NCBI GenBank assembly: GCA_002284615.2
Contig: MU069945.1
Location: 144,559-178,762, forward strand
Length of the DNA: 34,204 nucleotides
Reading direction: 5' to 3'
Source: Dunaliella salina
Taxonomy: Eukaryota > Chlorophyta > Chlorophyceae > Chlamydomonadales > Dunaliellaceae
The notes beneath the pieces were generated by a model. That model searched no databases. It was not told where the DNA came from and worked only from the letters and a program-made list of their open reading frames with translations. Shown here piece by piece: positions 1 to 34,159 of the stretch (its first letter is position 1; each line of letters starts with the position of its first letter). The translations under genes were made by a program, and so were the position numbers.

Positions 1-300
1 TGGCTGGTTACTGCTCGGTGACTGAGCTGCTGGTGACTGCATGGTACCTGGCCAGTTACTCAGCTAGTCATGCAAAGGAGTGTGACTGGCTGGTTACTGC
101 TCGGTGACTGAGCTGCTGGTGACTGCACNGTGCCTGGCCAGTTACTCAGCTAGTCATGCACTGGAGTGTTGCTGGCTGGTTACTGCTTGGTGACTGACCT
201 GCTGGTGACTGCACGGTGCCTGGCCAGTTACTCAGCCAGTNATGCACTGGAGTATTGCTGACTGGTTACTGTTCGGTGACTCAGCTGCCGATGACAGCCT
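1..300. repeat. 86-bp tandem satellite, about 3.5 copies
   Basis: The unit begins TGGCTGGTTACTGCTCGGTG and restarts at 1, 87, 173 and 259, an exact 86-bp period. The last copy fades at about 300. The array runs off the left edge, so its full size is unknown. Inside each unit, short GGTTACTG / GGTGACTG / CAGTTACTCAGC words recur in both orientations, which suggests the 86-mer itself grew from a shorter ancestor. Two ambiguous bases (129 and 241) fall in the array, as expected where assembly is uncertain. No coding sense is seen. Confidence 0.93.
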
Positions 301-1150
301 GATAACAATTCAATTACTTATTGAGTAATGCTCTAAAGTGTTACTGGACGATTTCCAGGCAGTTACAAAATGAGAAATCGAGGCCGGTTACGATTTGGTT
401 ACTTGTTCAGAAACTGCTTTGTAACGGTCCAGTAATGAAATACAACATTCCGACGAAGGTCTCGAGCGGATGCCTGTACAAGGGCTCCATAGAAGAACCA
501 AACCTAGAACCTCCCAATCCCAGGGGAGCATCATTGTACCATGCCGCAATTTGGGGGAGAGGTTTGAAGACGGGCTTCTTTGCAGGAAAATTGGGCGCAC
601 ACTAGGAACAGGAGAACGAGGCGCACACTAGGACAGATGGCTTACGGCCCAATGGCCCATGTGAGCTTGATAAGATTGACCATAGCTGGCCTCATTTGGT
701 GAGGTGCACTGTTACTAACGGTGTTTGTTAGTGCTGATTGTTGGGTCTTTCCTTAATGCGCGTTGGCGGTTATTTAGAAAAGACTTCTACTTACTTTTTC
801 CCCCCACACCAGACAGACCCTCCATCATGTTGGAGATTACAGCAGCTCGGTACTTTAAAAAAGAAAAAAAAGATTTCATGTTTGGGATTTGAGGTGCACA
901 TGGGGGACCTTCAGTGAAGTGTTTGGCTTATTGGGAAAAAAAGGCTTGATTCCGGAAATAGAATGAGAAGACTCATGATCTTGGTTTTGAACAAGAACAA
1001 GGCATCCTCAGAACATGCTCAAACATATAAAAGTCCAAGCTCAGTATCCAGCATGCATTAAGACTCAACAGTCAGCACTGGGACTGATTGTGAGCCTCAA
1101 CAGTAGCCTCAAGGAGAACTTTGGTAACGAATGGGGATCCGGTGGATTGT
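301..1150. other. Unassigned spacer
   Basis: No convincing gene is visible. Open frames here start at non-ATG codons, have no recognisable motif and overlap on both strands. One short stretch (about 728-768, CTGATTGTTGGGTCTTTCCT then TAATGCGC) resembles stretches near 11138 and 7021 and is treated as a dispersed repeat word. Confidence 0.5.
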
Positions 1151-1154
1151 TAGC

Positions 1155-1905
1155 CATCCATGGCATTGAACTTTTGTCGCAAGTTTGGTTGCCTTTTTGT
1201 CAGAGTTTCTTCAGCCTTAGTGTCTGAGCGGAACTTCAGCTCAATGAGGCGCATAACTCACGTGATATCTCTGTCTCTAGGGTACAACAGGCTTGGAGAG
1301 CGAGTGGTGCCCCTGCCTTGCATTGATAGAACAATGATTCCGTCTGGTTTGCTTGTTGTGTGGCAGAAGTTAGTTCTGTAGGATACAACCAACTTGGAAT
1401 GTTCGTCTGGCCTTCATCAAGGACGTCTTTATCTGAAGTCCAGTATTCATCCTTGTCCAAGCGTCCATAACAACAATGAAAATGCCTGAATCTCTTTCTG
1501 ATTTCTTTGAAGTACATGCTGATAGGATGGTAATGGCCACTCATACGCATTTTGTTTATGTGTGGATGAGTGCATCTGAGGAGAGTGAGAGAAGTGCTAT
1601 CAGGTGCACCACATAAGAAGCTGATCGGAGGGCCAGGCTGGCCTGTAAATTGCGTGGCATCTTTTTCATTTTAAAGAGGACTTGTTGGGTATTATAGGAT
1701 GTTGAATTTTTATTTGAGAGACAGATTTCAAGTTCAAAAAGGGGTTGCTGATTTTTGGATTTGAAACGAACAGTGGGTTGTTTGTTTCCAGGCCTCAGGG
1801 GGTTTTGCCAATTTGTGAAGCTGAAGGTGTTTGTATCAGCTGCTTCTAATTTGTGTGAGTCATGTATTTTTGTTTGTGGAAATGGCGTAGATTTGGTAGC
1901 ATCCA
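1155..1905 (-). pseudogene. Decayed LINE 3' fragment (zinc-knuckle to ExK region)
   Basis: Reading the minus strand from about 1860 down, the peptide LEAADTNTFSFTNWQ matches LGSADTSGYHYQRWQ of the copy at 7.1-8.5 kb. The stretch aligned with the Cys/His knuckle (about 1555-1650) is clearly related in nucleotides to the copy at 5.6-6.3 kb, but the cysteines are lost. Farther on, PDGIIVLS and then MRLIELKFRSDTK (about 1220-1260) give the conserved PD...ExK block in another frame. At least two frameshifts and several stops make it dead. The 3' C-terminal block is missing or unrecognisable, and the 5' limit coincides with the SINE target duplication. The identification rests on similarity to the other copies in this window. 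Confidence 0.72.
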
Positions 1906-1936
1906 AAGTTCCTCTATAATTGTGTGAGAAGGAAAA

Positions 1937-2098
1937 GCTACGCAAGCGGGACTAGCCCCCAAGCATCACGGGAGGAACGACCTTAGCACCCAATACTGGG
2001 CCCGCCTTATTGAACCTCCACAGAATCGAACCCACAACCTCCACATCCCTTTCAGGGATGCAATCCGAATAGACCACACCAGGCTCCCACCACTATGC
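1937..2098 (-). mobile_element. tRNA-derived SINE-like insertion
   Basis: On the minus strand an A-box-like TGGTGTGGTCTATTCGG (about 2075-2092) is followed by a good B box, GGGTTCGATTCTG (about 2024-2036), at tRNA-like spacing. This is the RNA polymerase III promoter arrangement of tRNA-derived SINEs. The stem pairings of a functional tRNA are not evident. The block is flanked by imperfect 31-bp direct repeats (about 1906-1936 and 2100-2130) differing at 5 sites, as expected for target-site duplication by a LINE-type integrase. It could instead be a decayed tRNA gene, but the flanking repeats favour a SINE. Confidence 0.6.
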
Positions 2099-2130
2099 GA
2101 AGTCCCTCTGTGGTTGTGTGAGATGGAAAA

Positions 2131-3390
2131 AAAATGAAGGAAAAACTACTCTTTTAGACATCATCCGATAGCATTGATTGAGGGAAGGACCTACTTGCTC
2201 AAGGCAAATCCTCACCGGTGCCCGTTGAGTGAGCTTTTTTGGCTGGAGCAGCAAGCGAGAAAAAGGTTTGAAAAAAGGTTCTCTGTTTGAGGCAATCCAG
2301 TGTCAGTTTTATGGGGTTCCTTTGCTGGATTCAAAGCGAGAGTATCTGCACTTTCGTTCAAACATGCTTGAGAAAAATAGAAAGGGCTTGTGGCACTTGA
2401 ATCTACTCTGTGTGCAAGGCAGGTTATGGAGGCCGGACCTCATGGTAGCGGGATCCACTAAAGACACTGATGTACAGCCAAAAATCCCTCTGGCATTTAA
2501 TACTCAAGCTGCATTCATGACACCACAAAAAAATGCGCCGGCATTGCCAGTCCTTATTGCCTAATGATACTGCTTTGAGCACAGAGTGCAGCAAGGCAAG
2601 CCAGTCTCAGCACCCCAATTCATCCCTGTCATGCTCATATTTTTTACCTTGATTTTGCTTTGTTGGCAGGTATTTGGGATGTAGTTGGTTTCACAAACTG
2701 GTCTGTACGACCAGCTTGCCGTATAGTGGTTTGTGTTCCACATATTGCATAGAACGTGATTTGTGCATGCCAGCCCCCTGTTCAAAATGAAGCAACAAAA
2801 ATGATGGGCTTTCTACGCAGAAACCCTTCCATCTTGGAAAGGCAATCAAAAAAATCCGCTTTTTTCCGCAAAGAACAAGAAAGAACAATCAAGCNCCCCT
2901 GTCCACCTCCAAGCAATATCACACCTATTATGCACCTATCATTAAACAATGGGCCCTGCCTGCCACTATTAAAACAACTTTCTACATGCAACTATCTCAC
3001 CTGCTGCTCGCAATGATGTTGAGTGCGCCTGCCAAGTACAGCTGACACATGGGCATGTCCTGCCTGTGCAGGCCTTGATGATGCCCAGAAAATGAAAAGA
3101 GAGCGGCAGACGAAAGAAGAACTCGCAAGGGTCACTTTGAAGCCCTCCTGGGAATCAAAGGATTTACAGGAGACTTGGCCTGAATTTCCTGGCCTGAAGT
3201 GTGTTTGCTTCAGTTCAAAGCACAACAGAACCTAATCTCTACATACCCACGGCCCCCTGTGTGAGCAGGCCTGGTCTTCACAGACATTGGCAGCGATTTC
3301 AAACTCGCAAAACACAATCTCCAACTGCCTACACATGCCTCTAACAGAAGTATACCTAAGTACTTGTGCCCTCAAAACCTTTAAGAGAGG
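2131..3390. other. Unassigned stretch between SINE and LINE copy
   Basis: A 111-codon open frame (2229-2564, plus) begins at a non-ATG codon and has no recognised motif. A peptide with CPAC (plus, about 3057) is too isolated to assign. The 3240-3390 part may be a very decayed continuation of the LINE copy that follows. One ambiguous base lies at 2895. Nothing here can be called a gene. Confidence 0.4.
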
Positions 3391-3393
3391 GAA

Positions 3394-3950
3394 AGGCTCA
3401 ACTTAAGTCGACCAGATGCTATTTTGGTCACCCCTTATAATGCCAAGCCTACACCTAACAGTGTTTCTCCTTCTCATTCACATCACGCTTTGCGCAGGTC
3501 CATAAGGAGGACAGCCAGAATTTGCCGCGTGAAGCAGCCTCATAAACTTCATATGAATGAACGTCCTATGCACCTCATAGAAATAAAGTTCTGTAAAGAT
3601 ACAAGGCCAGAACATCAGTCGAACGCGGCTAAGCAGCAGCATGCAGACCTTTGTAAACTAATTAGCGCTAAAGCTAAGACTATTCACCCTATTCTCCTGG
3701 GCGTTGGTGGTTCTATTTACACTGAGCATACCCTGAAGCAATTCAAGCAACAAGGACTGGATCACCAACGTGCCACTAAGCTTGCTCCACAACTTCATGC
3801 CCATTCGAATGGGCATATATGCCCACAAACTAGTCTCCACACGCCGCGCTATTGAAAACAAAAATACTTCCCACAGCCAGGTTCTAGAACCAAGTGCTTG
3901 TAGTAACCCACCAGATCCTCATGATCATAAGCTTTTTATCTTTTTCGTAT
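3394..3950 (+). pseudogene. LINE C-terminal domain, RPD...ExK block, frameshifted
   Basis: The frame contains SRPDAILVTP (from about 3406), then MHLIEIKFCKDTRPEHQ (about 3569-3620), ILLGVGGSIYTEHTLK (about 3690-3738) and GLDHQRATKLA. A single frameshift near 3800 moves the continuation (YAHKLVSTRRAIE) into the next frame. The conserved ending NPPDPH lies at about 3904-3923, the same six residues that end the minus-strand copy at 12.26 kb. RPD followed by ExK is the pattern of PD-(D/E)XK nucleases, so the domain may be the restriction-like endonuclease of the element; this is inference from motif spacing. The fragment is 5'-truncated, with no RNase H or reverse transcriptase in front. It is the best preserved C-terminus in the window besides the 12.26-14.23 kb copy. 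Confidence 0.8.
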
Positions 3951-4289
3951 CTTGTGGTGGAGGGGACTCACGGCTCTTTTTGAGCCAATGTGTCACCTCA
4001 TCCTTAATCAATGTAGGGAGAGTTTCTCTGCCTATGTAGTTTCCTTTTTCTTTCCCGCGGCAGATTCAACTCAAATCTTGAAAGACAGGATTTTGAAAAA
4101 CCTGAAGCAACCAATGTATGGCAGCAGAATCTGGACACATAATTGCATAGCAAGATCACATTTGATACAAACACCACTAATCCTCAAACAGACATAAAAG
4201 GCTCATGCGAATATTGGCTGCGCGAGGTTGACCTCGTGAAGCACACGGGTCAGCAATCCCCTCATCCAGCATCATCTGACACAGGATCC

Positions 4290-4968
4290 CACAGCCATTC
4301 CACTCCTACTCCATCCCCCTTCATTCTCCCAGAAATCTACACGGCACACATGGCTTGCATGTATAATACACAAGGCAAATGTGTTAGTATGATTTCCTCT
4401 GACCGCATCCAAATCCTCTACAGGGCTTCTTATGGGTCCAAGCTTGCTGGCATGCATGAGAAAATAACACCAGCTCTAGGCAACTTCGCTACTGAGCTGC
4501 AAGGACTCCTTTCCTGCGAATTCATGCTTGAAAGAAAATACTGTAGTAAGGAGATCAAATACTCCTTTTCACGAGCCCTTCCAACTCACATTCATCACGC
4601 CCTTCGAAATGGGCCTAAGTAACCCAAGAAAAAATGGCCTCCCCACTAAACCACAACCCACATGCCAGAATCATTGGAGTGCGCACTCCCAAGACACTCT
4701 TTTTGGTACCATGCATAATGCCTTCTCATCCAAATTCTCAGGCTTCTCAGTCTACCATCCCATTTATGATGAGGGAATCATGACCCAAGCTTTGCAACAT
4801 GCCATCTACTCTGCCATTCTCAACACAGAGGCCACTGCTACATTCATGTTCCTTCCTGCTTGGAGTAAGAACACGATAACCAACCCCTACTCCAGACTTA
4901 TCAATGCCTTACCCCCACCTCTGTTACAACCTCCTGTTACGACCTCCAGGAACCATACCTTGCGTTAA
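4290..4968 (+). pseudogene. Probable LINE fragment from upstream of the RT domain
   Basis: Two overlapping frames read as coding-like protein. The first, ending at 4622, includes SDRIQILYRASYG and LPTHIHHALRNG. The second, 4528-4968, includes FSGFSVYHPIYDEGIM and TATFMFLPAWSKNT. The shift between frames lies near 4600. The acidic/aromatic YDE...LPAW pattern resembles the region that precedes the reverse transcriptase core in RNase H-bearing algal LINEs, but I recognise it only from general resemblance. Position and orientation directly after a same-strand LINE 3' end suggest head-to-tail or nested copies. No RT catalytic motif follows. It could also be an unrelated dead gene. Confidence 0.45.
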
Positions 4969-5044
4969 ACTTAGTTACAGTGCTCAATCCTGCCCTAACC
5001 AAGAGGTTCCCTGACCTGAGCATACCTGGGACGTGAAAAAACAA

Positions 5045-5385
5045 GTTTGTGGGCACATTGAACAGAACGGGCATGACATTGTTGAGCAAGCTTCGTGGCA
5101 CGCTGGTGATCCAATCCTAGTTTATCGGATTGCTTCAGGGTATGCTCAGTGTAAATAGTTCCACCTACATCCAGGAGAAAAGGGTGAATTGTAACAGCTT
5201 TAGCGTTGATAAGTTTACAAAGGTCTGCATGCTGCTGCTTTGCCGCGTTCGACTGATGCTCTGGCCTTGTGTCTTCACAGAACTATTTATCAGGTGCACA
5301 TGACATTCATTTGCATGAAGTACATGGGGTTGCCTCATGCAGCTAGTTCTGGTGGTCCTCCGTGGGGAGCTGCGCAAAGCGTGAT
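5045..5385 (-). pseudogene. LINE C-terminal fragment, minus strand, decayed
   Basis: From about 5290 down, the minus strand reads HVHLI followed by a damaged ExK region. It then has a stretch matching LLGVGGxIYTEHTLKQ and DHQRATKLAQQ of the 3.4-3.95 kb copy (about 5050-5150), ending near the YAHKLV equivalent. The RPD motif is not preserved and the frame changes at least twice. It is very close in sequence to the plus-strand copy 1.2 kb away, so the two lie in inverted orientation. No function is expected. Confidence 0.65.
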
Positions 5386-5604
5386 AGGAATGGGTACATC
5401 GATGGTATTGAAGGCGCAGATATAAGAGTGCCGATACTCTTGCACTTCAAGTCAGTCACAGCACCTCTCAGCACACCTCTCAGCTTGCTGCACCAATCAC
5501 AACATCTCTCATACAGAACACTGGCCTCTTTCAAACCTCCAAGGCAGACAAAAACAGATCAAGCATGAAGAGTACAACTTGGGGACAGTAAACCTTAGCA
5601 CTTT

Positions 5605-6292
5605 TAGTTACCAAAATTGGTAGAACCTGCTCAGCATGTCCAATACACAACCCACAATTCCAAAAGTAGTAATGCCTTTTGGCATGTAAAAGCTGTGACC
5701 CTCAAAGGACAGATCAATGTCCTCAAACATCAAACAGACACCCTGCACAATGGCAAAAATGTCAAATGCTTCAGTGGCCACCCTGGGCCTTCTCTTTGCC
5801 CTTTTTGTGGTGCACCTGGTAGCACTTCCCATACCTTACTCAGATGCACTCACCAACAGATAAACAAAATGAGCATGAATTGCCACCATCAAGCACACAG
5901 CACCTGCGGCAAAGCAATTAGCAATGGAGGCTTTGGATCTTACAGATGCATGCAATACAGAAAGGCTATACTCCCCGGATATGGTAATTCCAATTAGTGC
6001 CCACTGAAAAATTCCATGTTGGCTGTTTCCATCCAGACAACCACCAAATTCACAGCTCAGTCGCCCTGATGGCATTTTAGTTATGCCCCTTCAAGTTGAA
6101 GACAGACTCTGCCTGAACACCCTTGAGAGACTCCACACACCACCCGCGGAATGTGAATCCCAGAGACAGAGGTGACCACCTCATTGAGATGAAATTCTGC
6201 TCTGATACCAAACCCAAACAAACATTCCACACTGCACAAAATCAGCATAACACACCATTGAGAGACTACGTGCAAAAGTTCCTTGGGGCACA
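5605..6292 (+). pseudogene. LINE fragment: zinc knuckle plus RPD...ExK block
   Basis: The frame 5617-5997 contains the knuckle CPFCGAPGSTSHTLLRC (C-x2-C-x8-H-x4-C, about 5797-5847), a form found C-terminal to RNase H in this family. After a frameshift near 6000, SRPDGILVMPLQ (about 6059-6094) and DHLIEMKFCSDTKPKQ (about 6174-6222) give the PD...ExK pair. The copy is cut about 60 bp after the ExK motif, where a 140-bp repeat starts at about 6295. The conserved LLGVGG block is therefore missing: it was either truncated by that insertion or lost by recombination. Confidence 0.78.
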
Positions 6293-6294
6293 CA

Positions 6295-6435
6295 TCGGAA
6301 AGAAAAGAAAAGTCTACACAAGCCAAAGGCTGCGTGTCTTCAGGTAATACCTAACGTAAAGTCAAAGGCCTCCTCGGAGAGCCCTCTAAAGCTACACTAG
6401 ACACAGCTAGCCTAGGAGAGAGCCAGAAACAGACT
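6295..6435 (+). repeat. Short dispersed element, copy 1 of 3 (direct)
   Basis: A stretch starting AAAAGTCTACACAAGCCAAA and ending GCTAGCCTAGGAGAGAGCCA matches 6776-6915 in the same orientation and 6962-7080 in the opposite orientation. This copy is the most diverged in its middle. It has no coding frame and no pol III boxes that I can see. It abuts the broken end of a LINE copy. The unit is probably a short non-autonomous element or the end of a larger transposon. Confidence 0.7.
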
Positions 6436-6517
6436 TCATGAGGATTTGGAGGGTTGTCCGCCATGCTCTCGGACGCCCAGACTCTCCTCCTGCTGTCCGC
6501 CGCCGCGCGCCCAGCAG

Positions 6518-6750
6518 CCCCCCCCCCCCAGCAGTCCCCTGAAAATGAAGAGCATGTTTATAATGGATATCAATTTTGCTGTTAATGATGTCAATGATAT
6601 TAATGATGGATATCAATTTTGCTGTTGATTCACCTTTGTGCTTGGTAAGGCCAAGATTCATAAAAGGTTTGATTGTGTAATCATTAAGGATAGTGCCGGC
6701 CACACCAATTTAGATGATTTGCAGAGTCACTTTGTTGTTTCTGTTTGGTT
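6518..6750 (-). pseudogene. LINE C-terminal fragment (VGxAGTI block)
   Basis: On the minus strand NNKVTLQII (interrupted by a stop), then VAGTILNDYTIKPFMNLG and LTKHKGESTAKL, match the 7.1-8.5 kb copy (GVAGTIYNKDTITPLLYLG). Both represent the LLGVGGxIY block of the family, so this is a second sublineage. The homologous region is broken by a short duplicated GATATCAATTTTGCTGTT word (about 6567 and 6609). The downstream peptide is Gly/Arg-rich and shared with the 7.1-8.5 kb copy. The 5' limit coincides with a (TTGGA)n run. Confidence 0.7.
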
Positions 6751-6775
6751 TGGATTGGATTGGATTGGATTGGAA
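6747..6775 (+). repeat. (TTGGA)n microsatellite at LINE/repeat boundary
   Basis: Five imperfect copies of the pentamer TTGGA separate the truncated minus-strand LINE piece from the second 140-bp element. It may mark a slippage-prone insertion junction. Confidence 0.8.
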
Positions 6776-6915
6776 AAAAAGAAGTCTACGCAAGCCAAAG
6801 GCCGCGTGCATTAAGGGAAGATCCTTTAACTGGAGAGCTAGAGGCCTCACCAGAAGGCCTTCAGAACCTGCACTAGACGCAGCTAGCCTAGGAGAAAGCC
6901 AGAAACAGATCTAAT
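6776..6915 (+). repeat. Short dispersed element, copy 2 of 3 (left arm of inverted pair)
   Basis: It runs from AAAAAAAGAAGTCTACGCAA to about the AGAAACAGATC word. It matches 6295-6435 directly and pairs as a reverse complement with 6962-7080 across a spacer of about 50 bases, so single-stranded DNA or RNA could fold into a hairpin with arms of about 115 bp. The shared core includes GTGCATTAAGGGAAGA, GCCTCACCAG and GCTAGCCTAGGAGA. Confidence 0.75.
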
Positions 6916-6961
6916 GGAGGGTTGCTCGCCATGCCCCTGGACACTTGGACTCTTCTTCTCC

Positions 6962-7080
6962 CCTCTCCTAGGCTAGCTTTGCCTAGTTTCGGTGGAGGGC
7001 CTCCTGGTGAGGCCTTAAGCTTTTGTTAGGGGCTCTTCCCTTAATGCACACGGCCTTCGGCTTGCCTAGACTTTTCTTTT
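6962..7080 (-). repeat. Short dispersed element, copy 3 of 3 (right arm of inverted pair)
   Basis: This is the reverse complement of the 6776-6915 copy, with the same CTCCTAGGCTAGC, GGTGAGGCC and CTTCCCTTAATGCAC landmarks in order. It ends in a pyrimidine-rich CTTTTC run next to the 3' end of the following LINE copy, as if inserted beside it. Confidence 0.75.
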
Positions 7081-7089
7081 TCTTTTCTT

Positions 7090-8516
7090 TTCTTTCCTCC
7101 CTTCCTCCGCCGCCGCGCGTCCAGCAAACCCCCTCCCAGAAGCCCCCTGTGAGCAAAGAGCGTGTCCAGTGTTTTTGATAGTGGTTAATCTTTGAAAGGC
7201 ATGGTCCCTAAGGTTGGCTGCTAGTGATTTGGCTTTTTGTTTGGTCAGGCCGAGATATAAAAGGGGTGTGATTGTATCCTTGTTGTAGATGGTACCGGCC
7301 ACACCAATTAAGATGATGTGTAAAGTCACTTTGTTATTCCTGTTTGGATTTCTGGAGCTGCAGGTCTTCAGTCTGGTGTGAGAATGATTGGTCACTGCAC
7401 GTTCTAGAGTGATGAAGGGATTTGTGTTGGGACAGAATTTCAGTTCTACACGATGTATGTCCATGTCTTGAGGAGGGATCTTGGAAGGATCAAGGTGAGT
7501 TTGTTTGCCTGGAAGAGGGCATACAAAGACAGCATCAAGGCGGGTTTGGTGCCGGGCAGGGGAGCAAGTACCATTTAGGGAAAACCCAGTCTGGAATAGC
7601 TCTTGATATGTTTCCAGGGACTTGTATGCCCTGATCCAGGAGTCTTTTGTTACTGCAGCCATCCATACCAATAAGGGATGAGCCACACCGGCCTTCACTT
7701 AGGGCTTTTACACAAAGACTGAGGGCTGCGTTGTGTCAATTGGTGTGCATCCCGCTGATTGTTGAGTTTGTGCACCTGAGGAGTATGTGGTCAATGTGGT
7801 CCATATCATCACATAGTGGGCATCTTCCAGAACTAGAAATGTTGAATCTGAAGGCATGTCTCTGATTGTACATTCTATCCGTACGATACTTCATTATATT
7901 AATTTGCTGTTCAAGGGCAATTCCTGGAATTTTCCAGAAGGGAATGCTGACCTCTTTGTTTGCAAGTTGAAAGGTTGGATTGTGTGATTTTGTGTTTGCT
8001 CCAGTGGTTGGTATGGCATCATCATGTTTCTGCCATCTCTGGTAGTGGTAGCCAGAGGTGTCAGCAGAGCCAAGCTTGTGTTTCTTGTGCATGTGTGCTT
8101 TAAGTTTGTCATTGAGGTTGGTGAGGTAGTGCATGGGGAAAGCATGGGAGCGGTGTATGCCATCATTTTGCGTGGAAGAGGTCTTCAATGAAAGCCAATA
8201 AAAAATTGTGGAAAGGGTCCCTGGTACCTGGAAGTACAGTGTCTATGGTGTCTGAGAGGGCTGCGGTGCGAGCGCAAGCATCAGCCCCCTCATTTCCTAC
8301 AATGCCAGAGTGGGCTTTGACTTTGTAAAAATGGATAGGGTGAGGGGAGTGCTCTAACATGGTTGATATTGCATGAATGAGCACTGTGTGTAGGTGATAC
8401 CTCATGCACATTGGATTAAGGATTTGATTTGAAATCTGGAAGAGGCAGGATGCACTATCGGTGGCAATTTCAGTTTGCTTGTGTTGGAGTGCCACAAGCC
8501 TTGTAGGGGTGTTCAC
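7090..8516 (-). pseudogene. LINE copy: RNase H end, zinc knuckle, RPD-like...ExK, C-terminal block
   Basis: This is a long minus-strand copy, 5'-truncated inside RNase H. In order: ATDSASCLFQI (third RNase H acid), IHFYKVKAHSGIVGNEGADA (last RNase H acid, about 8260-8345), a shifted frame with LGSADTSGYHYQRW and the knuckle CPLCDDMDHIDHILLRC (about 7770-7820), then RLDAVFVCPLP, DIHRVELKFCPNTNP (about 7425-7465) and ILIGVAGTIYNKDTITPL (about 7255-7310). The aspartate of RPD is kept as RLDA. At least two frameshifts separate the parts and the first two RNase H acids are absent, so it is inactive. The nuclease-like block is diverged from the 3.4 kb and 12.3 kb copies, marking a second subfamily. 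Confidence 0.85.
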
Positions 8517-9370
8517 GCCCCGAGGTGACTTTCACCAAATGACTTGAAAATTTGAGAATAGGTGCACATTTGGTAAATATTAAGGGCTGCAAAGTTGGAT
8601 TTTCGAAAATCGGCCCAGGAGCGGGCTCAGGGGAGCTCCCAACCTCGTTTCAGATCAGATCATGAGGTTTCCACACATACTCTTTAATAACTGGCCAGGA
8701 AATAGCCCAAATCTTGTAATTTTTATTTTGACAGATGCCTGCTATTGAGAGCTATCTGTAGACATGCTATTTGTGGGGAACAACTCCCTGATAGGCAAGA
8801 TGACTTGGAAAATGTGTGTTTTTTGCCCATTTTGGCCATTTTGCCCACTCAAAACATGGCATAAAAGATGTGGAGTGCTGTTTCCCTGTCCCTGACTTGG
8901 CATAGGTTCTTGGCATAGTATGATAAAACAGCACGAGCAAAATGGGGCGGAAACAATGTTGCTCAGCGCTGATGCTTGCTAGAATCATTGCTTTTTTAAT
9001 GCTTAAAATGTACGTTTGAGCCCACTCCTGACCAGCCAGGCAATTTTTTTGCGCAATTCTTGCTGCTAACCTTTCCTGACATTACAAGGTATCCAACGGT
9101 GTGCTTCTTGACCAAAACGGATGACTTTGAGAATGACCCAAATTTTTAGGTGCTAATTTGCCCGAGTGCTGACACAACAAATGGCTTTTGGTGCATCAAG
9201 TGCCTTCAGGATAATTGTTTTGGCACGAAACTTGGCATGGGGGGCCAGCATGATATTTTGAAGGGGCTGTGTGTGGGAAATTGGGAATGCGCAGGTGTGT
9301 GGGTGTATGTGGGGGGTTAGGTACTCACTTTTGGTGCTTTTGCATGAGAGCTGCATGGCAGGAGCGCTGC
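8517..9370. other. Unassigned AT-richer stretch
   Basis: No coding or repeat structure is recognised. The stretch contains short T-runs and repeated GGCCATTTTGCCC-like words (8825-8850). It begins exactly at the 5' truncation point of the preceding LINE copy, so it may be the original host sequence into which the LINE inserted. Confidence 0.4.
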
Positions 9371-9678
9371 GCACATGGTAAAACCGTGGAAGCTGTCAAA
9401 ACCCCTGTCTCAGCACACCGACCTGCGCTGCCTGCTACGCGCCGCGCGCCACACCCAGAGTGCCTCACATGCCCTCACAGGTGCTCATGGGCATCATCCA
9501 AAGCAGTTCCTGCAAGGGTTGAGCTGTCGCATGGTCAGCTGTCCAGCGTTTTGCTTCTGGAAGATCAGCATGCATGGGGTGTATCAGATGCACTACAGTG
9601 ACAATCCAAGGCTACAAACATGTGCATTTTGACCTCCTCGACTCACAAATATACTTTTTAAGTGCTGGAGTGCACAGG

Positions 9679-9893
9679 TCAGGTCATCACAGGTGAATGC
9701 TTGTGCGCCTGGTCCTCTTCCACCTCACAACCTTCTTCAGTGTGAAGCTGCTGCCAAATTTCACACATGATGACCTTCCATTCCTCTTTAGGAAGGATTG
9801 GGACGCCGGGGGGGAGGTCCTCCTGGGCTGCACCTCGCTCCAGGGCACAGGTTCCTCCTCGACGAAGGTCTTCTGCTGCCGCTGACGCTGATG
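9679..9893 (-). CDS. Candidate terminal exon, unrecognised protein
   Basis: The minus strand has an uninterrupted frame of about 70 codons ending in TGA at 9679-9681. It reads ASASAAAEDL near the start, then GVPILPKEEWKVIMCEIW, QQLHTEEGCEVEEDQ and HKHSPVMT at the end. Composition is protein-like: Ala-rich lead, Pro-rich turn, then an amphipathic acidic helix. An acceptor TTGGGCAG just before 9893 would start it in phase 1. There is no ATG, so it would be the last exon of a gene to the right. The competing minus frame (MSQRLGQHQRQRQQ...) is open over the same DNA but less protein-like. I recognise no family. It may be a host exon or another transposon fragment, given the LINE debris on both sides. 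Confidence 0.35.
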
Positions 9894-10284
9894 CTGCCCA
9901 AGACGCTGGCTCAAAATTTGCAGAATTGTTTATCTAATAGATAAATCCAAGCGTGTCCCAAAAATGGCGAGTTTGGAGGCCCGTCAGGAGGGCGATGACG
10001 TTTTACCTGTCAAATTTTCGTGCCTTACAGCTGGTGCACCGGGGTACATAAAACAAGTACTGACGGACTTTTCAATTTGTGTTTGATTAGGTCGATTCCT
10101 TAAATCGAGCTCCACGTGTTTTTGGTGGAGGGGGTCCGGTCTATGTTTGGACCCACACCCCCTGTATCTCCCCAGCCACAGCACCATCCCACATTCTGAG
10201 ACCAATTTTGCTGCCCCATTTTCCACCAGGAAACCACTCATGAAGCCAAAAATGGGATTGGAGCAACTTGGTCTGGGGGTGAAC
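9894..10284. other. Unassigned stretch
   Basis: No gene or repeat is identified. Frames on the minus strand continue from the RNase H fragment to the right without recognisable motifs. Confidence 0.35.
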
Positions 10285-10615
10285 ACCCCTACAAGGATAC
10301 CCACAAGTTCTGCCTTAGTGATGGTATTGGTAGGCCCATAGCCATTGGGTTTTATGTACAGTAGTAAATGTTGGGAGGGTTGAGTAGTGTCTCTTCCCGG
10401 TTTGTAAACACCTGAACCAGAAAGTGGTGGGGAGTCATCATCTTTGTGTAGTTACACTGCCATCAGTGTAGGCGTTTTCCCTCCAGTCCTTGACTCTAGG
10501 TGTGAACATCTCTTTGTAGTTGGTAGGGGTGAAGGCTGCCCTTACCTGTGGACATTTGTGTGAACAGTAATGAATGTCTGGGGGAAGTGATTTGAATTTT
10601 TGTTTTCAAGTGTGT
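10285..10615 (-). pseudogene. LINE RNase H fragment
   Basis: The minus strand reads WRENAYTDGSV (first RNase H acid, about 10453-10485) and, after a shift, GVYKPGR and PNGYGPTNTITKAELVGIL (second acid Glu, about 10295-10345). This is the same YTDGS ... TRAELAAI pair as in the 12.3-14.2 kb copy. The spacing is shortened, and the third and fourth acids plus everything downstream are missing, so the piece ends inside RNase H. It is too short to date or orient further. Confidence 0.7.
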
Positions 10616-12230
10616 GATGCTAGGTGTTGGTGGGTACGTAGTGGCTGGATTTGGAGGATGCAAGGGTAGCCAACAGGCTGGTACATCTTGCTGGAGGAGG
10701 AACTAAACTCCATCCCCATGCTATGTGGACATCTACAAGATCATAACGGGCTGCAGGCTTTGGCCCAGGGAGTGCCGCTCTTGCCCGCATGTGAGCTGCC
10801 AGGAGAAAAGCTGGCGCAGGAGTTGTCCCGGAAATTGGCGCGGTGGAGAAGGTGCTCGAATGTGGAGTGATTTTAATTGGTATCTGCATAACTGCATGCT
10901 CGCCTCCTGGCTATGGCTGGCCCCTGTGCAAGAGGGGCCCCTCATGTCACCCGATCGGCCCATGCTAAGATGTTGAAGAGCTTGCTCCGAGGCTAAAGGG
11001 GGGCCTCGACTTCTGTTGGTCAGGGCTTCTTGATGCCAGTGACGTGAGTGTTTTATACGGAGGCCAACTTGCTGGGTTGGACTTCTGTGCCTCTTTTTCT
11101 CTTGGTCTGAAATGGTGAGGCTCACTCTCAGCCTCAGCGCTGATTGTTGGATCTTTTCTTCATGCAAGCTGGCTTCTGCCCAGTGTAGACCTCACTGTAC
11201 TTTACATGCATGGTGCTTTAGTGCCTCCCGATTATTGTATTTTCCTCACGCAATAGCTCAGAGCCAAGCCCATACATTTTGCTGCTTTTTTTGTATACGG
11301 CTAAGTTTCTTTAGTGCTACTGTTGCTCTGTGTGGATGTCCTCTGCTTTCCCTTGCACCGTTGAGCCTGTTGCTCTGTGTGGATTTCCTCTGCTTTCTCC
11401 TGCGCCATTGGAACTCATCCTACTTCCTCACATTATTCTATTCTACAAAAGGAAGCTGAGCAGCCCTAAAAAACAGGGAGCTGAGCAGCTAAAAAAGGGA
11501 ATCCTTTTAGGTGGTTTCATCCAAGCTTGTGAGTGTGGGTTGAGAGGAGCAAACATGAATGCCATGCATTGCTTAAAATTCAAGTGAACGCGGAGCTTTG
11601 CATGAGCATGTGATTTTAGGCTGTTGCTGCTTGGAACCTCCTCATGAAACATTGCAATAGGGTTTGGATTTTCAAGAACACTGTGCCGAGCATCATGCAG
11701 AACTGCATCTGACCATTTCCCTCATGCATTTAGTGTCAGATAGATCTGGAGTCTTGAGTCAAACATTTGAGCTTTCGGTTTAAGACTTCTGGGGCCATTT
11801 TCCTCAGTGCCTACTTGGAAAACCTTTGCATTGTGTTATATTATGAGTGCATGTTCCTCAACAGGACGCCTCTATTTACAAGCTTTCTTTTAGACTTGTC
11901 TAGTTTCAGGTCTGTGTTTCCGCTCAGCTGCCCTCATAGGCGGATAAAGCGATGTAACTTTGCCTTACCTAAAAAAGGGAAGCTGAGCAGCTAACCTTTC
12001 TGGCTGAAAAGGCTTGTGAGTCAATCTCAAACAATGAGATTGGAAACAGAAGACACTCATTGCAGTTCGGGTGCAGCATTTTGCTGTCAGAAATCCAAAC
12101 AACCCATATTTCCTCCCTCCTCTGAAAGAAAAGAGAGGAAAAGAAAAGGAAAACTACGCAGGCAGTGAAAACAATCCCCACATCAATTAAGGAAAAAAAG
12201 ATACCTAGGGCTGAGGCACCGTGTATCCGC
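10616..12230. other. Unassigned region with small local duplications
   Basis: No gene is supported. The 10620-10960 part has overlapping open frames on both strands and may be decayed LINE linker between RT and RNase H, which I cannot show. A 47-bp duplication (GTTGCTCTGTGTGGATNTCC type) occupies 11322-11415. GGAAGCTGAGCAGC words recur at 11452, 11480 and 11979. A copy of the CTGATTGTTGG word lies at about 11138. Confidence 0.45.
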
Positions 12231-12258
12231 TTCACCAAGAGAAAGCAGAAGCAAGAAG

Positions 12259-14229
12259 TCAGTGGGGATCAGGTGGGTTACTGGCAGTAGCCCGTGCCTG
12301 ACCTTGTTGAAAGTTGAAAGAGTTTTTCTCAAGAGCGCGTCTGGTGCTAGCAAGTTTGTAAGCATACAGGACAGAATGAGCATGAAGCTTCCGAGCAAGC
12401 TTGATGGCCTTGAAAGTGTCAAGACCAAGCTCCTTAAGAGGCCCTTATGTGTGTGGGGTGTAGATGACTCCTCCCACGCCTAACAGGATAGTATGGAGGG
12501 CGACTTGAGCTGAGGCCCCAGAGAGATGACTACAAAGGGCGCGGTGCTGCTGCTTGGAGGCCTCAAGCTGGCTGTTAGGCCGCGTGTCCTCACAGTACTT
12601 GACTTCTACAAGGTGGATATGTCTCTGATCTGGATGGAGCTGACTGGGGTCACGAGCCTTGGATGTGGGTAGAGTGGCTGTGGCTGGCGCTGAGTCCTCC
12701 CTGTTTCCCCCGCGCCCCCCTGCACTTCTCAATTCATAACGAGGATTCGACCTAGACGCTCTTTTCAGAGGAACAACCAATAGAGCATCAGGCCGGCTGG
12801 AAGCGAGCCTATCCTTATTAGGGAAGCGGCGTGGGAAAATATATTTAGGGAGGGTCCTATTGGTAGCATGTTCTGGGATCTGTAGATCTTGCAAGGCAAG
12901 ACGGTCTGCACTGCCAGTGTCCATGGAGGCAATACCTGCCCCAAGAGGGCCTTTGCTGATGGCTTTTAGGAGGATTCTGCTGGCAATATTATGTCTCTCA
13001 GTTACCATACCAGACATGGTTGAATTTTGCATCCAGACAAGATGTGAAAGGCACTGTCAAATTCCCCACAGAGGGGGCATTGCAGGCTGGTGGAAATTTT
13101 GAAGCGCACCGCGTGTTTTTGATTGAAGAGGGTACCTGAGCGGTACTTAAAAATGTTTTGCCTCATTTTGAAAGAGAGTGTTGGCATTGTCCAGAAGGCA
13201 TTACTGATATTTTTGTGGATGTTGGGGAGTAGACTTTGGTAGAAGGAGTAGTACCCTGTGTTGGTGTTGGCCTTTCCAAGTTTGTGTTTTGAGTGCNTGT
13301 GCTTCCGTAAAGCATCATGGAGGTTGGAGAAGTGTTTCAGGTTTACGGCAGGTGGGTAAAGGCGTCTAAAGCATTTGCATTAGTGCAGGATGTTTCCTCA
13401 AAGGCAAGCCAGGTGGTGTCATGAAAAGGATTGCCTTCAAGGGTTGCACATGGGAAGGTTATGTCTGCAAGGGTGTCGTCATTCTTAATGGCCCGATGCT
13501 TGGCAATGGCATCTGCGCATTCGTTGCTGGCAATTCCAGCATGAGATTTAACCTTAAAGAAATGAATAGGGGTAGGTGAGTTGCATATGAGCTACATGAT
13601 TAACTTGAGGATGTGGCCTTGGACATGCTGGTGATGAAGTTCTGGGTAGAGTATTTGCTTTCTGATCTGTTCTAAAGAGCAAAGGCTGTCGGTGGCAATA
13701 CAACGATATCCTAGGAGAATGGCAGCTGCTATTGCCGCCAATTCGGCTCTGGTGATGGTGTGAGTGATTCCTGCTCCATTTGGTTGGACATGATTGGTGC
13801 TGTCACTGGCGGGGTGGTAGACCCCTGCACCAATCANTTGTTTTCCATTGTGTACATGACAGCTGCCGTCTGTGTATGCCAACTCTCTCCAGTTTTCAAC
13901 TTTGCGTTCCAGATGAGGGCTGGAGGATGTGAGTGGTGAAAGAGTTTGTTGGCTCTGAGTGATATTCTGAGGGGTTTGTTGGTAGGCAGAGGGTAGCTTT
14001 TTGAATTTATTAAAGCCAGTTTCAATTTCTGGTTGTCTGGGATTGAGGATTGGGTCATTGCTAACGTTTCTTTTCAGCCATCTTGCCTCACGGATGTCTT
14101 CTTTCAGGCCTGTGAGCCAATTTGGGTTGTTCCCATTCAGGCGGATTCTTGCAGCGGTATTCCTCCCTCCTCTTTCCTGTGAGGGAGACTTGCGGCACCA
14201 CAAGCCCTTGCGTCTCCTCCTCCATTAAA
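12259..14229 (-). pseudogene. LINE copy: complete RNase H, zinc knuckle, RPD...ExK nuclease-like domain
   Basis: This is the best copy of the family, 5'-truncated before RNase H with the RT domain absent. RNase H has all four acids: ELAYTDGSC, TITRAELAAIAAA, CIATDSLCSLEQI and, in another frame, HFFKVKSHAGIASNECADAI (about 13490-13570). Next come GTLFNQKHAVRFK and the knuckle CPLCGEFDSAFHILSGC (about 13040-13090). Then RPDALLVVP (about 12767-12800), HIHLVEVKYCEDTRPN (about 12580-12625), TILLGVGGVIYTPHT, a single in-frame TAA, GLDTFKAIKLARKLHAHS and the ending NPPDPH before TGA at 12259-12261. Between 13190 and 13590 the frame shifts more than once, and two ambiguous bases (13295, 13837) fall in it. 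In life the protein would cut target DNA, prime reverse transcription and remove template RNA; this copy cannot. Confidence 0.9.
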
Positions 14230-15257
14230 AATGCACATAGCGTTCATACGCCAGGCAAAGTCATCCTTTTTCTAAAAAAAGGCAGTTTCACTCCTAGTCG
14301 TCAGTGTAAAGGGCTTTATGTTAAGCTTAATTCTTGCGATGGGGGCCTCGAGGAAACTTGGCTCGGTTGGGGATCCTGGGGTGGGCTTGGGAGATTTTTT
14401 GGGGCTTCGGTGGTGGGAGCTTCAGCTCTCCCTTTATGCTTCATGCATGTGGCCGAACGGCGAGTTTTTTCCCCTCCCTCCTTCTTTGGGTGGGAAACCC
14501 CTGTGCAAGACATTAAGAGTCAACTTCCCTTGCCTTGACTGAAGGTCATGTGCCAACGTTCTTTGGATCCCTCCTCTGACAGGACACTGCCTGTTTGGAT
14601 GCGTGCTTCCTGACACAATTTGTCAAGAACACAGATCTTGGAATATTAGTGTCTTGTATGGGTTAGCGGAACGAATCAGGAAGATACCAGCAAACCAACA
14701 ATCTCCAAATTGCAACAATTGCACAACAGAAAAGAAGGCCAGAGGAGAGCAAATGTTTCTCTGGGAAAACGAAGGAAACACATGTTGCAGCAGTGAACTG
14801 GGTCCACTCCTTAGAAGCAAAGAAAAGATTTCAATCAAATAACAAGCGAGTTCCGGGAACAAATATAATGCATAAGATGAATGCGCCCTTGGATCTTAAG
14901 CGGGGTTCTTTGTTTGATGATATGGCAGTTCCTCCTCCCTGCCAGCGCTAGCAGCCAAGAACATGCTGCACATGCTTGTGAGATGCAAGCCCTTCCTGCC
15001 TGCCCACAGCGTCTGACGCATTGAATAATACAGGGTTGCATCGGAGTAAAATTCATGCACAAACACAAACTTCCACTCACACAAGCACTAGGTAAGCTTG
15101 CCACACCCCCCTGCCTGTATACAGCCCCACACCTTCCCAGTGTCTGCCCGTGAGTGTCTTCTGCTTCCCCAAGGACTCGCAGCTCTCATAATCAACCATC
15201 ACCCCCCGATAGAGATAACCTTGCCTCACTCTCCTACTCCTTGAAGAATAGGTACCC
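14230..15257. other. Unassigned stretch
   Basis: No gene is supported. A minus frame at 14896-15084 reads EFYSDATLYYSMRQTLW and later LPYHQTKNPA before a stop. It is faintly protein-like but unrecognised and without clear splice sites. The plus and minus frames at 14316-14542 are mutual shadows. Confidence 0.4.
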
Positions 15258-15270: not shown

Positions 15271-15534
15271 CACACCATTGTACATAGGAACTGAGGCGCT
15301 GCTCTCCTTGTCAGTCTTTCAGAACTCCCGGAAGACCCCCTCTTGAATGGTTTCTGACCCCCACACTCACTCAGACTTGCTTGTGCAAAGGATCGTTCCT
15401 AGCCACCTCGCGTGCAAAGGGTGGTTCCTGACCACCTCACACAGTTTGCTTGTTGGCAGGCAAGGCAAGACCACTGCACTCAAGAAATCAGGATCGAATG
15501 ACAGCACCTACAGGGGGAGGTGCCATGAGGTCCT

Positions 15535-15666
15535 ATGAGCACAAAAAGGACTGCGCCATCACCTGCAATGTTGGTTGCCACGTCTTTGTTGAATGATACC
15601 CTGAAGATCTCACCAGAGGACCTGCAACGTCTGCGCGCCATTTTCCCCTTGCAGGACAACCTCAGG
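15535..15666 (+). CDS. Candidate first exon, unrecognised protein
   Basis: Starting at ATG (15535), 44 codons read MSTKRTAPSPAMLVA, then LLNDTLKISPEDLQRLRAI and FPLQDNLR, ending at a possible phase-0 donor GTGATG. The second half looks like an acidic-basic helix typical of real protein, and a TATA-like word lies upstream. Directly after it a 61-bp array repeats its last codons together with the following bases, the same habit seen at exon edges of the minus-strand gene. Against it, the donor is weak, the minus strand is also open here, and the gene would overlap the 3' end of the hexosaminidase gene on the other strand. Function unknown. Confidence 0.35.
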
Positions 15667-15915
15667 GTGATGAGCATCACCCTCGCCACCCTGCTTTTGC
15701 ATGTTCCCCTTGCAGGACAACCTGAGGGTGATGAGCATCACCCTCACCACTCTGGTTTGCTTTTGACAGGGAGGGTGATGAGCATCACCCTCACCACCCT
15801 CAGGGTGTTGAGCATCACCCTCACCACCCTGCTTTTGCATGTTCCCCTTGCAGGACAACCTCAGGATGATGAGAGCATCACCCCCATCACCCTGCTTTGC
15901 TTTTGATAGGGAGGG
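15640..15915. repeat. Tandem array, about 61-bp unit, spanning the end of the candidate exon
   Basis: GCAGGACAACCTCAGGGTGA recurs at 15651, 15712 and 15850, with intervening GATGAGCATCACCCTCACCA words also duplicated on their own. Unit length is about 61 bp, with a longer gap where a half unit was inserted. It copies the last codons of the 15535-15666 frame plus about 45 following bases. Confidence 0.85.
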
Positions 15916-16094
15916 TCCCTGTCAAAAGGTTGCTGCATGCTCGCTTTGTACGCAAGGCATCCTGCTGCATGCACAAAAGTAAGGACAGTATGCGCATGTT
16001 TTGAGACGCCAGCACCAGCAGCCGCACAGCCAGAGTCTCAGGCTGTGGGCCAAAGCCTTGTCATCCTTGTGACCCTGGAAGGTACAGCACAATG

Positions 16095-16400: not shown

Positions 16401-16738
16401 AGCCATGCAGCCCGTTCACTGACTGCCCATTCTTTTGCGCTGCTTCTGTTCACCAAAGCATAAGCCCCGCACCTTGCCTGAGCCATTTGCACATAATCAA
16501 CGATGAGGAAGGCACATGCCCACATCACCACACGATGAGGTGACGCGGGTCTGCGTGCCGGGCATTCAAACGCTCTTGAGCTGTTTGAGCTTGCGATCCC
16601 ATGCATCCGCGCATTTGACATGCCTCCCTAGGCCTCTTTGACAAAAGGGCTGCGCCACATCCAGACACGCCCCATACATACGTACCCTCAAGCGAGACCG
16701 AGCTGTTCAGCACGCACGCACACACTGCCGAGCCCTCA

Positions 16739-16967
16739 GAACACGCCCCCTGTGTCCACAGAGCAGTGCAGAATGCCCAAGCACCCCACTGCGCACTCAG
16801 AGTACACCCTCTGCGTCCACAACTCTGTACCCCAGAAGCATCCCATGGGCACTCAGAACACGCCTCCTGTGTCTACAGGGCAGTTTGGAATGCCGGAAGC
16901 ATCCCACTGGGGCGCGTGGGCATCGCGCACGTGGCAGAGGAAGCTCTCCCAGCTGCACGCCATGCAC
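16739..16967 (-). repeat. Array of copies of the 3' edge of the last hexosaminidase exon
   Basis: GAACACGCCTCCTGTGTCTA (plus orientation) recurs at 16739, 16800 (half-length unit), 16856 and 16971, with full periods of 115 and 117. Each copy carries, on the minus strand, the coding end ASGIPNCP, then GTAGACACAG and TGA. The copy next to the exon is nearly identical to it, and the distal ones are shorter and more altered. Confidence 0.85.
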
Positions 16968-33965
<16,998 letters not shown>

Positions 33966-34159
33966 CTGCACATGCTGTGTTTGGTGTTCAAACAACCAGA
34001 GGGGCAATCATGTGCACGCAGAAAACACTGTACAGACCCCTGACCAGTTTGCACCTCCTTTTTCAGCGACTGAACTTCTCCATTACGCATCGGTACACAC
34101 CCTGCTTCCTCACCATCCGGCCTTGGGGAAGCGATGTTGCATCCTGGTCCTTATTTATA

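Follow-up and report, generated by a model that had tools for sequence, protein, structure and literature searches.

Tandem arrays across exon borders in a beta-hexosaminidase gene and in other genes of Dunaliella salina

Introduction

Tandem duplication of segments that carry splice signals, and repeats across exon-intron boundaries of human genes, are already known. Ordinary intronic minisatellites likewise consist of tandem units of tens to hundreds of nucleotides, which occur in multiple, diverged copies. Among the cases presented for intron gain by tandem duplication are potato RdRp, fission yeast and ATP2A1; in potato RdRp the copied segment has an intron-exon structure of its own, and a further duplication of 83 bp lies within an intron (PMC4974935). 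In human segmental-duplication genes, tandem repeats located across exon-intron boundaries are described to alter splicing or to form introns; these repeats are recent and variable, they account for 80 modifications of primate paralogues, and RNA evidence was examined in that work (PMC2812944). Introners, as characterized in PMC9860276, form dispersed families whose insertion into numerous genes adds intron sequence in bulk.

The window analyzed here, a stretch of 34,204 nucleotides of nuclear DNA (C510:144559-178762 of the 284.9-Mb Dunaliella salina assembly), contains a gene in which tandem copies extend across exon edges. As in the intron gains treated in PMC4974935, a segment bearing splice signals is copied in tandem, but relative to the cases presented there the D. 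salina duplications make introns that already exist longer from their edges, in repeated events at many exons. Like the human boundary repeats, the arrays lie across exon-intron boundaries (8/16 borders of the window gene, including the stop-codon edge, and 16/115 in a sample of other loci); unlike those reported in PMC2812944 they are mostly diverged ladders in unrelated algal genes, which are known here from DNA sequence alone. The bulk addition of intron sequence is shared with introners, whereas the three array units that were searched match their own locus only, as judged from the best-scoring candidates in non-N sequence, and not dispersed families of the kind covered in PMC9860276. Intronic minisatellites are resembled in the head-to-tail arrangement of the units and in period and identity, which are similar to those of exon-free arrays of this genome; the difference is that the unit includes an exon end and that placement at borders is about 2-4 fold above chance. 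The D. salina genome announcement makes no mention of such arrays (PMC5658486), and exon-edge ladders in Dunaliella are not described among the matches listed in the open-access literature, a scope outside which most subscription journals fall.

Results

The window gene encodes part of a GH20 beta-N-acetylhexosaminidase

Located on the minus strand, as are all of its exons and arrays listed below, the gene specifies the C-terminal portion of a beta-N-acetylhexosaminidase of family GH20 (Pfam PF00728, E=2e-9). The best-scoring solved chain for its protein is a beta-hexosaminidase, and the closest protein is DUNSADRAFT_13098, with 100% identity across the aligned part. Joining nine exons, which are separated by GT-AG introns and agree in phase, yields a translation identical to this NCBI protein at every residue. 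The first of these exons, 34101-34116, is uncertain, since the window is followed by 26 kb of N. The remaining eight are 33587-33747 (phase 1 to 0; exact match to the NCBI protein) and, according to the spliced translation, 31408-31565, 29995-30080, 26159-26253, 24232-24373, 21989-22099, 19066-19174, which contains the GH20 motif GAQGNLWTEF, and 16968-17214, the last coding exon with the stop codon TGA at 16968-16970. A preceding sequence-only reading had named six exons, four of which (33587-33747, 21989-22099, 19066-19174 and 16968-17214) agree with the NCBI model of DUNSADRAFT_13098. For the other two the model places one edge at 31408 instead of 31432 and at 26253 instead of 26219, respectively, each alternative lying within an array, and the coding exons 29995-30080 and 24232-24373 had been overlooked.

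Past the N run that follows the window, weak GH20 pieces are detectable at C510 ~205.1-208.4 kb (L003, L004). A candidate upstream acceptor near C510:205.7 kb, which is located inside a three-copy tandem array, was left out of the counts because exon status there rests on these weak matches.

Tandem copies include exon ends together with adjoining sequence

Arrays were examined by self-alignment, Tandem Repeats Finder and alignments for each exon edge, and a border was counted as spanned when a local duplication scoring at least 42 bits, with copies at most 1.2 kb apart, covered 8 nt on either side of it. On the donor side of exon 33587-33747, self-alignment and edge alignment reveal an array at 32779-33645 with a unit of ~157-161 nt and about four intron copies, each unit containing 59 nt of the exon end. 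The donor-side array of exon 31408-31565 (31085-31487) consists of an 89-nt unit plus an older copy and has two candidate donors inside. Exon 29995-30080 possesses an acceptor-side copy (30038-30224) at an offset of 126 nt with 87% identity, and the acceptor side of exon 26159-26253 carries ~7 copies of a unit of ~92 nt (26211-26889). Donor-side copies of exon 21989-22099 extend over 21470-22029, with 21785-21833 and 21981-22029 as the top pair (offset 196 nt) and two fainter copies that are visible only in the edge alignment. At exon 19066-19174 there is an acceptor-side copy (19135-19389; offset 120 nt, 68% identity) and a donor-side fragment copied 262 nt away (18801-19121); border 19066 was not counted as spanned, because this match extends only 3 nt beyond the exon edge. 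The last coding exon is flanked on its acceptor side by an array with a 116-nt unit (17167-17460), comprising three copies of ..CCAG/GTxxATGATGCTGCC, while a further array with a unit of 115-117 nt (16732-17076) lies across the end of the coding sequence and the stop codon and thus involves no splice junction. No border array was found by the rule at exon 24232-24373. Five of the border arrays are present in the Tandem Repeats Finder list (16849-17076, 17169-17455, 26214-26889, 31297-31472 and 33245-33645), which lacks the copies at 18801-19121, 19135-19389, 21785-22029 and 30038-30224 seen in the self-alignment.

Altogether, the rule finds 8 spanned borders among the 16 of the eight main exons, i.e. 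seven splice edges and the stop-codon edge, when 2.9 are expected from random placement of the exons (p=0.009; circular shift, p=0.015), and seven of the eight exons are affected versus 2.0 under random exon placement (p=0.0002). Local duplications cover 47% of the exon bases in the gene region and 18% of the other bases. The exon contributes about 40-109 nt to the unit at spanned borders, pair identities range from 68 to 92%, and according to the alignments, eight splice edges of the gene have a duplicate with splice signals adjacent to the segment it was copied from.

Self-comparison and alignment of units to edges, the checks proposed together with the sequence-only reading, therefore confirmed copies that carry an exon end plus adjoining sequence. 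Each of the six exons named in it has at least one locally recurring edge that includes adjoining non-exon sequence, although the 16968 edge is a TGA stop codon and not a splice junction and the match at 19066 is the one reaching only 3 nt past the edge. Its statement that nearly every exon is affected stands at 7/8, with an acceptor-side copy at one of the two overlooked exons (29995-30080) and none by the rule at the other (24232-24373). Likewise, these data agree with the proposal that introns are lengthened by repeated duplications at exon edges, which spare the coding sequence and deposit copies of splice sites. The contrast it had drawn to minisatellites that ignore exon edges does not hold, as the arrays of the window gene likewise cross the edges and do not stop there.

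Genome-wide searches with three array units, among them the donor-side unit at 33587 and intron-side units of the 26253 array, returned among the best-scoring candidates in readable sequence only the units' own locus on C510, within the window, which argues against the arrays being introners. A EukProt record labelled Pelagomonas calceolata is 93% identical over 17% of the query, at exon 33587-33747; this record is probably a contaminant from a Dunaliella relative, and it appears to read from the exon into further copies of the unit.

A second gene in the window had been considered on the basis of ORF 15529-15905, which looked like an exon that ends in the array 15639-15916. Since the ORF belongs to no Pfam family and has no homologue, it was not used as evidence. 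The unit of this array contains a pyrimidine-rich run plus CAG followed by an open frame and resembles a duplicated exon edge of the plus strand.

Border copies look like decaying relics

Comparison of the exons of the window gene with their copies yielded 55/383, 60/385 and 98/387 mismatches at codon positions 1, 2 and 3, respectively. The resulting third-position ratio near 1.7 matches a constrained exon paired with an unconstrained copy, whereas a coding copy should give a far higher ratio. Retention of splice sites was determined with the dinucleotide masked during the search. In the window gene and the sample together, GT or AG is kept in 40/47 copies found in this way, compared to 119/182 (65%) where these dinucleotides occur elsewhere (p=0.008), and the mean retention per border is 0.89 versus 0.65. 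However, as the true splice site cannot change, decay along one branch at the rate of the first and second codon positions already predicts that ~72% are kept; against this expectation 40/47 has P=0.03, ignoring shared ancestry, and the 20/23 obtained when only the top copies are considered has P=0.08. The excess over one-branch decay is thus marginal, and together with the codon-position pattern it indicates that the copies behave as decaying relics. Early counts without masking (18/21, 17/21 and 48/51) are superseded by the masked search; 48/51 in particular is not relied on, because alignments that need 8 nt on either side of the border favor kept sites.

At edges 17214, 30080 and 33587 the first copies are 97-98% identical in the exon part and 76-79% in the intron part, for which short gene conversion from exon to copy is one possibility. 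Copies at the 26253 edge show the opposite, the intron part being more alike than the exon part. Comparison of copies with one another gave a mixed result: exon-derived parts are better conserved in one pair each at the 17214 and 21989 edges and less conserved in the 26253 array.

Border arrays occur in other genes

For comparison, 14 loci were chosen by kinesin or HSP70 homology in a profile search of the genome and not by array pattern. Of 27 kinesin exon matches 24 were taken, including one with stops from which only the donor was used; of 41 HSP70 matches 36 were taken, and one (C433:80647-80775) was treated as a decayed copy. Myosin (3 matches) was left out. The last locus to be included was L038, at a time when the results for the others were known and its two overlapping matches had already been visible. 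Borders were called from sequence by scoring, except that the splice motif served for manual placement of one acceptor of L029 and of all borders in L038; a small number of borders at which no site could be called were omitted.

Copies across exon edges are readable in several loci, among them the kinesin genes of C94, C104, C38 and C32, and in the HSP70 gene of C433 a decayed copy of the 3' part of one exon follows the donor of that exon. Hence, border arrays are not special to the window gene. Under the rule, five of the 14 loci lack intron duplications, and 0/52 of their borders are spanned; in the other nine, two of which have none, 16/63 borders are spanned, eight on the donor and eight on the acceptor side. 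Over the first 13 of the 14 loci taken together, exon bases are less covered than other bases (9.5% vs 19.2%), opposite to the window gene. A beta-binomial distribution fitted to 13 sample loci assigns a probability of 0.11-0.17, over three settings, to a richness in spanned borders like that of the window gene, which suggests that the extremity of this gene is unremarkable given the wide differences in array load between genes.

Arrays are also common away from exons: 20 stretches, of which 11 are blank, have 16% of their readable bases in arrays and a density of 5.1 clusters per 10 kb. Traces of duplication are present in 9/9 readable stretches drawn regardless of genes; 11/19 random stretches are wholly N, as are large parts of the assembly. 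Before L038 was added, the 22 exon-touching clusters were compared with 47 others and showed no clear difference in median period (146 vs 130 nt, p=0.51), identity (81% vs 82%, p=0.38) and length (372 vs 279 nt, p=0.09).

Clusters lie at borders more often than under uniform placement

Counted per border, 16/115 are spanned in the 14 loci versus 13.2 expected from the intron coverage of each gene; earlier versions of this count gave 10/95 vs 18.7% (two-sided p=0.047, towards depletion) and 11/97 vs 18.8% (p=0.068). We judged the plain comparison of border and intron coverage to be the wrong null, because it is biased against borders: a single array adds several intron segments to the covered sequence, but no more than one border. 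Therefore, nulls based on duplication events, along with simulations, were added. When one founding unit is placed uniformly, with placements inside an exon or over a whole exon forbidden, about 4.3-4.4 of 32 local duplication clusters are expected to straddle an exon border in the 14 loci, whereas 15 do so (11/27 vs 3.3 without L038); copies within one array are not independent. The excess over uniform placement is 3.4-4.2 fold in five detection settings. In the window gene, which had been chosen for the pattern, 8/12 clusters are at borders versus 0.8 expected. Even the generous null of rotating whole arrays yields 11.3 expected versus 17 observed (P about 0.01). Accordingly, the answer to the question raised with the sequence-only reading, whether arrays are more frequent at exon edges than random placement would give, depends on the unit of counting: they are when clusters are counted or rotated, they are not clearly so per border, and by coverage exon bases of the first 13 loci lie below other bases.

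Neutral forward simulations, in which exons were frozen while indels and array growth were allowed, placed 12-25% of clusters at borders in five settings, compared to 47% observed, and 15/32 has P<=0.001 in all of them; in an earlier simulation with the exon lengths of the window gene, eight spanned borders were reached in 0/320 runs. Pairs anchored in an exon can stay visible for longer, an effect which amounts to a ratio of 1.3-1.4 in four of the five simulation settings and to 0.9 in the fifth. Clusters of at least 86% identity, i.e. younger ones, are enriched as well (3/8 at borders vs 1.0 in the unbiased set, P=0.057; 5/12 vs 1.2 with the window gene included, P=0.004), so that longer visibility does not fully explain the excess.

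Base composition is a partial cause of the excess. Duplicated units free of exons are GC-richer than the background (median 0.515, n=48, vs 0.482, n=1707; p<0.0001), duplication propensity rises ~10x from the GC-poorest to the GC-richest bin, and exons have a GC content of 0.58 versus 0.49 in other intron DNA. Weighting for GC raises the expected number of border clusters to 5.6, so that the observed 15 represent a 2.7-fold excess (P=8e-5). By our own arithmetic, which is not a formal test, an excess of about two-fold is left after GC weighting and the visibility effect.

Discussion

We favor, with somewhat more confidence than doubt, the explanation that the ladders are products of frequent tandem duplication on a local scale, which takes no account of splicing and favors GC-rich DNA, combined with selection. 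Both the duplication mechanism and the purifying selection are inferred. Duplications with units mostly of ~50-260 nt would occur frequently throughout the genome, and those that fall within an exon or comprise one entirely would mostly be removed by purifying selection. A duplication crossing an exon edge would be tolerated, because the inner copy is still functional: the copy beside the exon body would retain a working splice site or stop codon, while the outer copy would become intron or 3' flank and subsequently decay neutrally. Repeated rounds may then generate ladders, longer introns and scattered dead look-alikes of splice sites. The equal frequency of donor and acceptor sides, the array at the stop codon, which requires no splice site, and the lack of a clear difference between exon-touching arrays and others argue against a process linked to splicing. 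In view of the first two of these observations, of arrays being common off exons, of the low coverage of exon bases in the sample, the 16/115 spanned borders versus 13.2 expected and the preference of duplication for GC-rich DNA with exons being GC-rich, a border-aimed process or gene-wide system, as envisaged in the sequence-only reading, is not borne out. Nevertheless, the residual excess of about two-fold leaves room for a true preference for exon edges.

Such a preference would mean that borders are intrinsic hotspots of tandem duplication beyond the effects of GC content and of the visibility of exon-anchored pairs, for instance if transcription, splicing or chromatin at borders (R-loops, a GC step or a nucleosome edge) caused breaks or replication slips; introns would then grow from their ends inward by copying of exon edges, with a standing reservoir of splice-site copies. 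We consider directed duplication of this type rather unlikely. The excess in genes unselected for the pattern, also after GC weighting, and its presence among young clusters of the unbiased set speak for it, as would the window gene had it not been picked for its pattern; yet donor and acceptor edges are struck equally, the stop-codon edge is duplicated too, spanned borders are not clearly above the array density of their own introns, and the sample is confined to 14 loci of two gene families. The opposite possibility, that uniform duplications combine with a longer recognizability of exon-anchored pairs in a window picked as an extreme, is unlikely to suffice. It could account for exon parts being more identical than intron parts in several first copies, and window-like richness is not improbable under the beta-binomial fit, but simulated border fractions stay well below the observed one, young clusters are enriched as well, and duplication is not uniform, since it prefers GC-rich DNA.

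That selection maintains the copied splice sites, as decoys which bind splicing factors in long introns or which serve as alternatives, appears quite improbable to us. GT and AG are retained more often in copies than elsewhere, the sequence-only reading and NCBI picked different sites inside two arrays, and the record labelled Pelagomonas calceolata appears to read into array copies. On the other hand, most of this retention is already predicted by one-branch decay, with a marginal remainder before shared ancestry is considered, and codon-position decay reveals no coding constraint on the copies of the window gene. An assembly artefact in the form of duplicated contig ends or mis-joined reads is hardly credible. 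The genome was assembled with ALLPATHS-LG from mostly short reads plus ~10x PacBio and has a contig N50 of 7.8 kb (PMC5658486), which would make such errors conceivable; however, the pattern is present on other contigs, the separately labelled 93% identical record appears to have repeated units at the same exon, and pair identities of 68-92% argue against a false join, which would give near-identical copies.

If exon edges are duplicated this often genome-wide, introns can lengthen from their borders harmlessly, and each event would leave ready-made splice signals, which bears on intron growth, alternative splice sites and new introns. As border clusters exceed the uniform expectation in unselected genes, the choice between hotspots and GC-driven duplication with selection is an answerable question. 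Ladders can also mislead gene prediction, as illustrated by the two arrays in which the edges of the sequence-only reading and of NCBI differ.

Two further features of the window were noted. Positions 1-14300 contain what we read as LINE-like remnants, with repeated fragments in the self-alignment and two RNase H pieces on the minus strand (8163-8531 and 13592-14224). In addition, three acceptors of the window gene have long (CA)n tracts (gene strand) that start ~2-31 nt upstream (33749-33801, 24387-24493 and 31596-31688); such tracts are also found directly before the L029 kinesin exon and the L038 HSP70 exon near 8163, where they occupy the place at which a pyrimidine tract is expected.
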